From positions 1 through 61,883 of the forward strand of contig JADHNP010000004.1 in assembly GCA_016779445.1 (NCBI GenBank): a stretch of 61,883 nucleotides of DNA, read 5' to 3'. The notes under the pieces were generated by a model, which made no database searches, was not told the origin of the DNA, and saw only the letters and a program-made list of their open reading frames with translations. Both the position numbers and the translations under genes were made by a program. This stretch comes from Luminiphilus sp. GTDB lineage: Bacteria; Pseudomonadota; Gammaproteobacteria; Pseudomonadales; Halieaceae. Of this stretch, positions 18,935-20,647 are shown one piece after another; the stretch's first letter is position 1, and the number at the start of each line of letters is the position of its first letter.

Positions 18935-19011
18935 CGGGGTGTAGCGCAGTCTGGTAGCGCGCCTGCTTTGGGAGCAGGATGTCGGGGGTTCGAATCCCTC
19001 CACCCCGACCA
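18935..19011 (+). tRNA. tRNA-Pro (anticodon TGG)
   Basis: A 77-base cloverleaf including encoded CCA. The acceptor stem is CGGGGTG pairing with CACCCCG, the discriminator is A, and CCA is at 19009-19011. The D arm is GCGCAGTCTGGTAGCGC. The anticodon stem CCTGC/GCAGG encloses TTTGGGA, giving anticodon TGG. The T arm contains GGTTCGAATCC. A C at position 1 and the TGG anticodon identify proline. The TGG tRNA can read all four CCN codons if U34 is modified. Confidence 0.98.
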
Positions 19012-19094: not shown

Positions 19095-19171
19095 GGTGGC
19101 TGTAGCTCACCAGGTAGAGCACCGGATTGTGACTCCGGAGGTAGCGGGTTCAAGACCCGTCAGCCACCCCA
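19095..19171 (+). tRNA. tRNA-His (anticodon GTG)
   Basis: A cloverleaf of 77 bases including G-1 and the encoded CCA. The acceptor stem is GTGGCTG pairing with CAGCCAC, with the extra G at 19095 opposite C73 (19168), the identity pair unique to tRNA-His. The anticodon stem CCGGA/TCCGG encloses TTGTGAC, giving anticodon GTG. The T arm contains GGTTCAAGACC. No separate promoter was seen in the 83-base spacer, so it is probably co-transcribed with tRNA-Pro. A run of seven T at 19182-19188 follows, but without a clear hairpin. Confidence 0.98.
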
Positions 19172-19310
19172 TTCATTCGCGTTTTTTTCCTCAGCTGATC
19201 GTTGCGGCATCTGCGCCGTTGTCCGTTTTGTGACATTGGGCCAACGATAGGATAGGGGAGGACCTCGCGAGGAAGATCCCCCGGTGATGACATCGCGCGC
19301 TTTGCTTTAG

Positions 19311-19334
19311 AAAAAAAGGGGCAATCTTTGCCCC
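19311..19334 (-). terminator. Rho-independent terminator of predicted sRNA
   Basis: On the minus strand GGGGCAA (19334-19328), a three-base loop and TTGCCCC (19324-19318) form a perfect seven-base stem, followed at once by seven T (19317-19311). On the plus strand the stem is followed by GAGAGG, so termination is minus-strand only. No annotated minus-strand gene lies upstream, which points to a non-coding transcript. Confidence 0.8.
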
Positions 19335-19404
19335 GAGAGGTGCGTTTCAGATCAGAGTCGTGGGGCCTTCCGTGGCCCCCTGTAACGCGCTTGCCATCCT
19401 AGCT
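19311..19404 (-). ncRNA. Predicted small RNA, unknown family
   Basis: A transcript of about 94 nt is bounded by a strong promoter (19440-19412) and an intrinsic terminator (19334-19311), both on the minus strand. The 5' end carries an AGGA close to the start (19400-19397). A stem GGGGCC/GGCCCC (19379-19374 with 19367-19362) then presents ACGGAA in its loop. The next 27 nt look unpaired and include a C-rich segment (ACGCACCTCTC) complementary to Shine-Dalgarno type sequences, followed by the terminator. GGA in a hairpin loop is the binding motif of CsrA/RsmA, but only two GGA are present, fewer than in RsmY, RsmZ or CsrB, and no GacA box was seen. It does not resemble 6S, 4.5S, tmRNA or Spot 42. 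No frame inside it looks coding. Expression is predicted, not shown. Confidence 0.6.
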
Positions 19405-19411
19405 GCGAGCC

Positions 19412-19440
19412 AGTATGTCGCAATTTGCAAACAATGTCAA
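19412..19440 (-). promoter_or_regulatory. Strong sigma-70 promoter of the sRNA
   Basis: On the minus strand a consensus -35 (TTGACA, 19440-19435), a 17-base spacer and CATACT (19417-19412, four of six matches) are present. Upstream, from about 19457 to 19520, the sequence is almost pure A+T and could serve as an UP element. Start predicted near 19404-19405. Confidence 0.65.
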
Positions 19441-19546
19441 CAGCGGCGAGGAGCCCAAATAAATTAAATAAAATGATTAAAAACAATTATATAATGTGAT
19501 TTTGTAATTTTTAAGGCCGATTATTTCTCGAATCGTTATCGGAAAA

Positions 19547-19573
19547 TGCAATATATTGCATATCGCGATATGC
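19547..19573. promoter_or_regulatory. Two overlapping perfect palindromes
   Basis: TGCAATATATTGCA (19547-19560) and GCATATCGCGATATGC (19558-19573) are both perfect palindromes and share GCA. They lie 107 bases upstream of the sRNA promoter and about 300 bases before xthA. Dimeric regulators bind such sites. The bound protein is unknown. Confidence 0.5.
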
Positions 19574-19673
19574 GCGGGCTATTGCCGTCCGGCTCCGTTC
19601 GACAAAAAAGGTCTGAGCGATTGCACGCACGCGCCTTGATGATGTGATGGCGTCCTAGCAGCGGAGGAGATCG

Positions 19674-19689
19674 CGATTAGCAATAATCG
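19674..19689. other. Hairpin with GCAA tetraloop
   Basis: CGATTA and TAATCG form a six-base stem closed by GCAA, a GNRA-type tetraloop, if transcribed on the plus strand. No gene boundary is close by. It may belong to a long xthA leader or be a DNA dyad. Confidence 0.3.
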
Positions 19690-19799
19690 GAACACGCAAA
19701 ATTATTCGACGTTAAGAGATCGCACGGCATAATGACGCAGCAAATTGACGTCTAGCCGGATTGTTAGCGCTTCACTTGTGCGGCGCTCGGTTGTTACGG

Positions 19800-19819
19800 T
19801 TCGACGCTGCTGCGTCGAA
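19800..19819. other. Eight-base hairpin upstream of xthA
   Basis: TTCGACGC, a TGCT loop and GCGTCGAA form a perfect eight-base stem that ends 57 bases before the xthA ATG. There is no U-tract, so it is not an intrinsic terminator. It could be an operator or a leader hairpin. Confidence 0.4.
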
Positions 19820-19876
19820 TGACCATGATATTGTAAATTCCGAGCCCATCAAAACATAACGAGGGTCAGTATCCCG

Positions 19877-20647
19877 ATGTATCGCGTTATTACCTGCAAT
19901 ACCAATGGCATCCGTGCCGCAGCGCGCAAAGGCTTTTTTGATTGGCTGAGCCAGCAGTCTGCCGATGTCGTCTGCATTCAGGAAATCAAAGCAAAAGAGG
20001 TGCAGCTAACGGACTCTGTATTCTACCCCGAGGGATACCACTGCTTTTACAATGAAGCGGAACGTCCGGGGTATTCCGGAACCGCGATCTTTGCGAAGGA
20101 AAAGCCGCAACGAGTGGTTTCTCGTTTGGATTGGGAGATCGTCGATAGTGAGGGCCGTTATCTTCAGGTCGATTTTCCCGGTCTCAGTGTCATTTCACTT
20201 TACGTTCCGTCGGGTTCCGCATCCGAAAAGGCGCAGGCGCGAAAAGACGGTTTCATGGGTCCCTTTTACGAGCATCTTGCTGCGCTGCGGCGCAAGCGTC
20301 GCGAGTTTATTATTTGTGCCGATTGGAACACCTGCCACCAAAATATTGATTTAAAAAACTGGCGAGCCAATCGAAAGAATTCCGGTTTCATGCCGCATGA
20401 GCGTGCCTGGCTGGACCGTATTTACAGCGACCTGAAGTGGGTCGATATTTTTCGTGAGATAACGCAGGAACCTGATCTTTACACATGGTGGTCGAATAGG
20501 GGGCAGGCCTGGAATAATAATGTAGGTTGGCGGCTTGATTACATGTTGGTCACTCCGGGTTTGTCAGGGACGGGGTTGCGTCAATCGATCTATCGAGACG
20601 AGCGATTCTCTGATCATGCGCCGCTGACTATCGATTTTCAGTTGTAG
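19877..20647 (+). CDS. xthA: Exodeoxyribonuclease III
   Basis: ExoIII is the main AP endonuclease and 3'-repair exonuclease of base excision repair. The 256-residue protein has the exonuclease-endonuclease-phosphatase fold with its catalytic residues in place: Asn in TCNTNGIR, Glu36 in CIQEIKA, Asp and Asn in CADWNTCH, Asp in WRLDYMLV, and Asp-His in SDHAPL. All are retained, so this is a nuclease and not the catalytically inactive Pseudomonas Crc paralogue, whose N-terminus it superficially resembles. A GAGGG lies 11 bases before the ATG, rather far. It stands alone after the long intergenic region. Confidence 0.95.
   Translation: MYRVITCNTNGIRAAARKGFFDWLSQQSADVVCIQEIKAKEVQLTDSVFYPEGYHCFYNEAERPGYSGTAIFAKEKPQRVVSRLDWEIVDSEGRYLQVDFPGLSVISLYVPSGSASEKAQARKDGFMGPFYEHLAALRRKRREFIICADWNTCHQNIDLKNWRANRKNSGFMPHERAWLDRIYSDLKWVDIFREITQEPDLYTWWSNRGQAWNNNVGWRLDYMLVTPGLSGTGLRQSIYRDERFSDHAPLTIDFQL

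Follow-up and report, generated by a model that had tools for sequence, protein, structure and literature searches.

A conserved, structured small RNA of Luminiphilus with GGA-bearing loops, a candidate CsrA/RsmA sponge

Sequence comparison confirmed that a minus-strand small RNA (sRNA) gene at positions 19311-19440 of a Luminiphilus contig is real and evolutionarily conserved. We consider it probable (about 0.7) that segment 19311-19405 is, as a whole explanation, the gene of a compact CsrA/RsmA-binding RNA, a candidate sponge, of Luminiphilus and its close relatives. The window, by which we mean the entire 61,883-nt stretch analyzed, is contig C92 of genome G000 (2.47 Mb, 87% complete). We observed a conserved, structured RNA gene that occurs at two loci, has invariant GGA loops and, in its A type, to which the window copy belongs, carries a palindrome in the promoter. 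The features discussed are the following.

18935-19011, plus strand: tRNA-Pro
19096..19171, plus strand: tRNA-His, convergent neighbor of the sRNA
19311..19405, minus strand: small RNA of ~95 nt, 5' end predicted ~7 nt past the -10 hexamer
19311..19334, minus strand: intrinsic terminator, stem GGGGCAA/TTGCCCC of 7 pairs with loop AGA (19334-19318), followed by seven T (19317-19311)
19342..19351, minus strand: 3' strand of the long-range stem
19362..19379, minus strand: hairpin 2, GGGGCC-ACGGAA-GGCCCC, with an A-N-GGA-N hexaloop
19379..19388, minus strand: 5' strand of the long-range stem, which encloses hairpin 2
19393..19403, minus strand: hairpin 1, GCU-AGGAU-GGC, with GGA in the loop
19412..19417, minus strand: -10 hexamer CATACT, matching TATAAT at 4/6 positions
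19418..19430, no strand assigned: palindromic operator TTGCAAATTGCGA between -35 and -10
19435..19440, minus strand: -35 hexamer TTGACA
19539..19568, no strand assigned: pair of single-mismatch operator-like sites in the sRNA-xthA interval
19877..20647, plus strand: xthA, exodeoxyribonuclease III (TIGR00633), divergent neighbor used as synteny marker

The -35 and -10 hexamers are separated by a 17-base spacer, and the terminator stem begins 78 bases after the -10 hexamer. These elements, including the seven-pair stem and the seven T, lie on the minus strand exactly where a preliminary description of this DNA had placed them, and the A+T-rich block that it noted upstream of the promoter is real. 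Taken singly, promoters and terminators are common in the window (6 versus 2.1 expected and 5 versus 3.6 expected, respectively). A scan for a promoter matching at least 10 of 12 positions and, 50-160 nt beyond it, a terminator with 7 or more pairs found a single pair in the window, at the sRNA locus, and none in 12 dinucleotide-shuffled windows, which bears out the suggestion that the combination is unlikely by chance. Among relatives the -35 element is TTGACA, TTGACT or TTTACA in many, and several A-type members match at just 3-4 of 6 positions. The segment had also been described as non-coding, and we agree: no start-to-stop stretch in 23 members exceeds 35 codons, whichever strand is read, and a reading frame is not kept, because the distance from hairpin 2 to the 3' hairpin covers all three modulo-3 classes (2, 6 and 7 of the 15 A-type members). 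Antisense frames, inspected in six members, are open and common to some close relatives, and are shifted in L069.

The gene order in the window is folD (-), tRNA-Pro (+), tRNA-His (+), sRNA (-), xthA (+). A DNA search gave clear matches to the sRNA region within the genus, and a profile made from nine seed sequences located the relatives' copies, which lie upstream of xthA. When the window and 12 relatives were aligned, mean identity was ~0.6-0.8 over 19450-19311 versus ~0.1-0.5 in the flanking intergenic sequence; tRNA-His in the same 13-locus alignment reached 0.57-0.76, comparable to the sRNA. Next to xthA in relatives from Luminiphilus (Halieaceae), the sRNA thus stands out as a conserved island. 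The earlier proposal to align the xthA/tRNA region has been borne out, with the promoter-to-terminator stretch conserved and the stems showing compensatory changes; together with synteny, this backs the claim of an unannotated minus-strand sRNA gene.

We searched 57 genomes of the genus with a covariance model (R1) built from 15 sequences, the window copy among them, and obtained matches in 32 genomes at E-values up to 1 (41 rows). The A type was kept in 16 of the 57 genomes, always with E-values of 5.7e-13 or better; 14 of these 16 had supplied R1 sequences, so that only those in G061 and G059 are new finds. A divergent B type occupies a second locus in seven genomes (G002, G068, G034, G016, G065, G032 and G073), with E-values of 7e-9 to 0.019 and none of the seven in the model. 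Homologues were thus counted in 23/57 genomes, comprising 14 model members and nine others. Nine weak R1 rows, with E-values of 0.09 to 0.8, were left out of the counts; the nine rows L143, L147-L152, L155 and L156 were dropped as terminator-only. A joint alignment of both types by R1 misaligned several B members, and two models were therefore used. The second model (R2), built from six B-type members only, finds 14/16 A-type genomes and all seven B-type genomes, with one match each. The window copy scores 93.2 bits (E 4.4e-18) against R1, which was built with it, and 34.6 bits (E 3.9e-4) against R2, which was not.

Beyond the genus, searches were run with stricter filters, at which weak matches are lost. 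At family level, R2 matched 21/140 genomes and 1/28 genera, and R1 matched 28/140 genomes and 3/28 genera at E-values up to 0.1, the matches outside the genus being L153 and L154. L154 was dropped. L153 is too weak to count as a member, despite three GGA hairpins, and is kept as a lead: in G087, from another Halieaceae genus, a promoter-like sequence is followed by an 89-nt segment (L153:1501-1589) with three GGA-loop hairpins, the last of them the terminator. It has little sequence likeness to the window family and, from its sequence, looks like another Csr-type sRNA. Across 390 genomes drawn from the order, R1 gave four matches at E-values up to 0.01, namely G000, G016, L208 and L209; L209 was discarded as terminator-only, and L208, from another family (E 6.6e-4), was discarded with one GGA-loop hairpin and a terminator loop without GGA. 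Neither model found the sRNA at 22 xthA loci of more distant Halieaceae, including L. syltensis NOR5-1B (L080). Scanning L076-L097 for a GGA hairpin plus terminator returned three matches, one of which is the known member L093, while the other two were read as coding sequence. At L076 and L078, where tRNA-His lies upstream of xthA, a search with filters off found the RNA absent and gave nothing convincing; the distribution of the sRNA is therefore patchy.

The A-type sRNA lies upstream of xthA on the same contig in 15/16 genomes; G059 is the exception, with the sRNA at the end of a contig and next to tRNA-His, tRNA-Pro and folD. In a tRNA scan over the full length of five other A-type loci, both tRNAs were found in L065, L066, L067 and L073 and none in L093. 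The B-type loci examined adjoin an Lrp/AsnC-family gene in opposite orientation to the sRNA, with an indolepyruvate oxidoreductase-family gene beyond it where the contig reaches, and a gene without assigned family on the other flank; these families were assigned by tests on L145 and by eye at the remaining loci. Where the contigs of L139-L146 (without L143) extend far enough, they also encode, beside the B-type sRNA, a conserved protein that looks secreted (QDLGC..., by eye); for its copy in L145, Pfam and NCBIfam gave no match. As a separate observation, L061 (NZHT01000058.1), labelled Flammeovirgaceae (MED636), encodes an XthA 99% identical to that of the window together with the same sRNA, and the label is probably wrong.

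RNAalifold recovered the core of the predicted structure unprompted. The long-range stem has 10 pairs, six of which show changes on both sides, with 83.3% of cells paired. In a fuller A-type structure 89.7% of 360 cells are paired, and pairing drops to 30-48% when the partners are slid by 1-3 columns. Eight A-type pairs are changed on both sides, a number reached by 3/500 shuffles, and 15 cells carry such changes versus 5.9 in shuffles (0/500); further pair types, one of five covariation measures, were no better than shuffles (202/500). For the B type, five of 29 pairs are changed on both sides (22/500 shuffles), the covariation score is equaled in 3/500 and further pair types in 245/500. The stems change in a compensatory way while their loops keep GGA. 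Hairpin 1 has the stem GUC/GAC in 12/15 and GCU/GGC in 3/15 A-type members around a retained AGGAN loop, and the GGCC/GGCC stem of A-type hairpin 2 gives way to GAGUC/GACUC or GGGUC/GACCC in L139 and several B-type members, with a constant loop.

We examined the loops in 23 members, comprising 15 in alignment A1, six in A4, and L138 and L139. All 23 have at least two hairpins with a GGA loop and 17 have three or four; three or more are found in 9/15 A1 members, 6/6 B members, L138 and L139, the last with four. The total of 64 GGA-loop hairpins compares with 16.9 expected from shuffles, in a set of members that are related and not independent, and the two in the window copy are not significant alone (55/400 shuffles have as many). 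In 23/23 members, four or more pairs close an A-N-GGA-N hexaloop; a loop of this kind is the one seen in RsmE complexes, and in most SELEX-selected ligands a short hairpin displays GGA in its loop, according to a passage of PMC7652899. The element CAGGA(U/A/C)G, the CsrB repeat in the same passage (PMC7652899), occurs in 12/15 A-type, 5/6 B-type and 1/2 other members, and reads UAGGAUG in the window. The terminator loop also contains GGA in 9/15 A-type members (AGA in the window). In all six modelled B-type members the 3' hairpin and its GGA loop are kept while the T run is absent, and termination is therefore not what preserves the hairpin there. The CsrA/RsmA-like GGA loop proposed earlier is thus among the best-conserved features of the RNA. 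One such loop was described, whereas the window has two, the second being in the 5' GCU-AGGAU-GGC hairpin.

CsrA, the presumptive partner, is encoded in the genome of the window and was detected in 39/57 genomes of the genus and in 16/17 near-complete ones. It was found in 13/23 sRNA-bearing genomes versus 26/34 without the sRNA, and the single near-complete genome lacking it (G070, 95%) carries the sRNA. This shortfall among carriers may be explained by incomplete metagenome-assembled genomes (MAGs) and by csrA lying near contig ends. In several MAGs csrA is close to a contig start (G024 C90:285, G004 C84:49, G035 C13:95 and G062 C4:957), which may reflect an adjacent repeat or merely short contigs. 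A search for UvrY/GacA in the 87%-complete genome gave a best match of 42.5 bits versus a cut-off of 280, and the best-matching stretch scores highest against a PleD-type receiver. The GacA box is TGTAAG-N6-CTTACA; upstream of the sRNA no good box was found in 21 members, the best matching at 7-9 of 12 positions. Control through a GacA/UvrY box is common, yet it is not required of every CsrA-binding sRNA.

The promoter instead carries an operator with the consensus TYGCA-N3-TGCRA, matched at 8-10 of 10 positions in 14/14 A-type members scored and lying between -35 and -10, at -23 (13 members) or -22 (one) relative to the model start; B-type promoters match at just 7-9 of 10. By eye, several A-type members have a second, weaker copy ~21 bp upstream. 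The placement of the operator in the -35/-10 spacer suggests that it would act by repression. Between the sRNA and xthA, 19539-19577 is a palindrome-rich stretch, within which lie the two operator-like sites listed above (10 window matches at this stringency versus 11.1 expected); the stretch may serve in the control of either gene, xthA or the sRNA, or be due to chance.

In the genome of the window the operator also precedes a type IV pilin gene, a minor-pilin cluster and a small gene without assigned family, and equivalent places carry it in relatives: the pilin gene and the small gene in G025, and the minor pilins in G011. The G025 pilin gene sits between genes that we take by eye to be malate-synthase-like and pilB-like. 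Exact operator sites versus a reversed control numbered 12 versus 4 in the window's genome, 15 versus 2 in G025, 11 versus 7 in G016 and 2 versus 8 in G011, so that enrichment is clear in 2/4 genomes only. With a post hoc restriction to A/T-only operator centers, each of the four sites in the window's genome precedes the sRNA, the pilin gene, the minor pilins or the small gene; 4/5 sites in G025 lie at those places (two at the pilin gene) and the fifth inside an ORF; the one site in G011 is upstream of the minor pilins, and the one in G016 is inside an ORF. The small gene (L184:1242-1562 and L207:1239-1499, from two species) has operator-like sites over its -10 region much like those of the sRNA promoter, and the L184 copy has no Pfam match. 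We tentatively envisage a regulator that binds tandem TYGCA-N3-TGCRA and switches the candidate sponge together with major and minor type IV pilins, outside Gac control, in an attachment or DNA-uptake regulon.

These findings are consistent with a mechanism in which the RNA would be transcribed from a sigma-70 promoter whose -35/-10 spacer carries the palindromic operator and would form, from 5' to 3', a short hairpin, a long-range stem bearing a second hairpin, and a hairpin/terminator. By presenting GGA in its loops, a single RNA molecule could accommodate one or two dimers of CsrA, which would leave less free CsrA, in the manner of the sponges CsrB, RsmY and RsmZ. The regulator of the shared operator may set the sRNA together with type IV pili, because a like operator precedes the pilin gene, the minor-pilin cluster and the small gene. 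Binding of CsrA by the sRNA is highly likely; like it, CsrA titration and the regulator of the operator are inferred. Several points count against the sponge reading: the number of GGA loops is small compared with classical Csr sRNAs, and that of the window copy alone is not significant, CsrA is found less often among carriers, the usual controller is missing, L076 and L078 lack the RNA, and one covariation measure does not exceed shuffles. An independent transcription unit is indicated by sequence for the window and the A type; the six modelled B-type members have no T run after the 3' hairpin.

We weighed several other explanations. That promoter and terminator are arranged by chance, with no gene between them, might be argued from the fold of the single window sequence, which is just modestly better than that of shuffles (z -1.73; 12/200 shuffles equally good). 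Conservation is the decisive evidence, and as conservation, covariation and synteny all contradict a chance arrangement, we give it almost no credence. Were the RNA the leader or attenuator of another gene, folD would be the candidate, as it follows the sRNA on the minus strand of the window; two opposite-strand tRNA genes intervene, however, and at the second locus the next gene, of the Lrp/AsnC family, points the other way. We rejected this very improbable reading on the latter orientation.

The RNA could alternatively be an Hfq-type base-pairing sRNA whose C-rich linker binds the Shine-Dalgarno sequence of mRNAs, with the GGA loops incidental or serving a McaS-like CsrA helper role. The linker is indeed unpaired in the fold of the window copy, which also has a U-rich terminator tail, and CACC occurs in the linker of 6/15 A-type and 5/6 B-type members. 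We found no conserved unpaired seed region, however: the linker differs among members in both its length and its sequence, and in several of them just a few bases are left, whereas the GGA loops are invariant, and the six B-type members lack a U tail. Base pairing as the main function is unlikely, and the C-rich anti-Shine-Dalgarno segment of the preliminary description proved a weak feature, given this pattern of CACC retention. Still another reading, that the conserved sRNA binds a different protein or works by some other mechanism and that its GGA loops are not CsrA sites, could draw on the 10/23 sRNA-bearing genomes in which CsrA was undetected; we judge it quite improbable, as the A-N-GGA-N hexaloop persists in members whose hairpin stem has been replaced. 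The CsrA-binding RNA remains our preferred explanation.

We compared the RNA to known families and systems. ARAGORN and Rfam at gathering score identified only tRNA-Pro and tRNA-His in the whole window, and none of 4227 Rfam families (including CsrB, RsmY and PrrB_RsmZ) matched the RNA at gathering score in the window or at L123, L139, L145 and L153, in agreement with the earlier impression that no known family fits. A relaxed search over 19180-19870 returned OrzO-P (17.2 bits), sau-6072 (14.2) and the CPEB3 ribozyme (12.7), all far below their gathering scores and rejected. The RsmZ model RF00166 reached at best 13.8 bits in the window's genome versus a cut-off of 44, and 12/14 control genomes also gave sub-cut-off matches. 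RsmX, RsmY and RsmZ of Pseudomonas resemble the Luminiphilus RNA in their length of ~100 nt, in GGA hairpin loops that include A-N-GGA-N hexaloops, in having their own promoter and terminator, and in CsrA/RsmA protein as the likely partner. They differ in that no sequence-structure match connects them, in having ~5 or more GGA loops compared with 2-4, and in a GacA box upstream where the Luminiphilus RNA has a palindromic operator and no good GacA box. McaS of Escherichia coli is likewise a short sRNA with few CsrA sites. According to part of PMC7652899, this CsrA-binding RNA also pairs with mRNAs, whereas a conserved pairing segment was not found in the Luminiphilus RNA. CsrB and CsrC of Enterobacteria and Pf1-Pf3 of Pseudoalteromonas share the GGA motifs and the CAGGA(U/A/C)G element and contain 9-25 GGA motifs versus 2-4 GGA loops in Luminiphilus members, and CsrB and CsrC are driven by BarA-UvrY, unlike the RNA described here. 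Counts of 22 GGA for CsrB, 14 for CsrC and 9 for Pf3 are given in passages of PMC11882849 and PMC7652899.

Taken together, the evidence supports a new family of a known kind, the CsrA-sponge type. Among open-licence papers we found no report on a Csr sRNA of Luminiphilus or Halieaceae and none on the RNA at 19311-19405. As a rule, Csr/Rsm sRNAs show no sequence conservation and are difficult to detect, as stated in a section of PMC11882849; here, a structurally defined and covariance-supported sRNA family is described in Luminiphilus (Halieaceae), in which a stem has been wholly replaced and its GGA loop retained. If our reading is true, a sponge RNA would reside at two different genomic loci in different species with its loops retained, and the operator common to type IV pilin promoters would offer a testable link of signal, surface life and Gac-independent post-transcriptional control.
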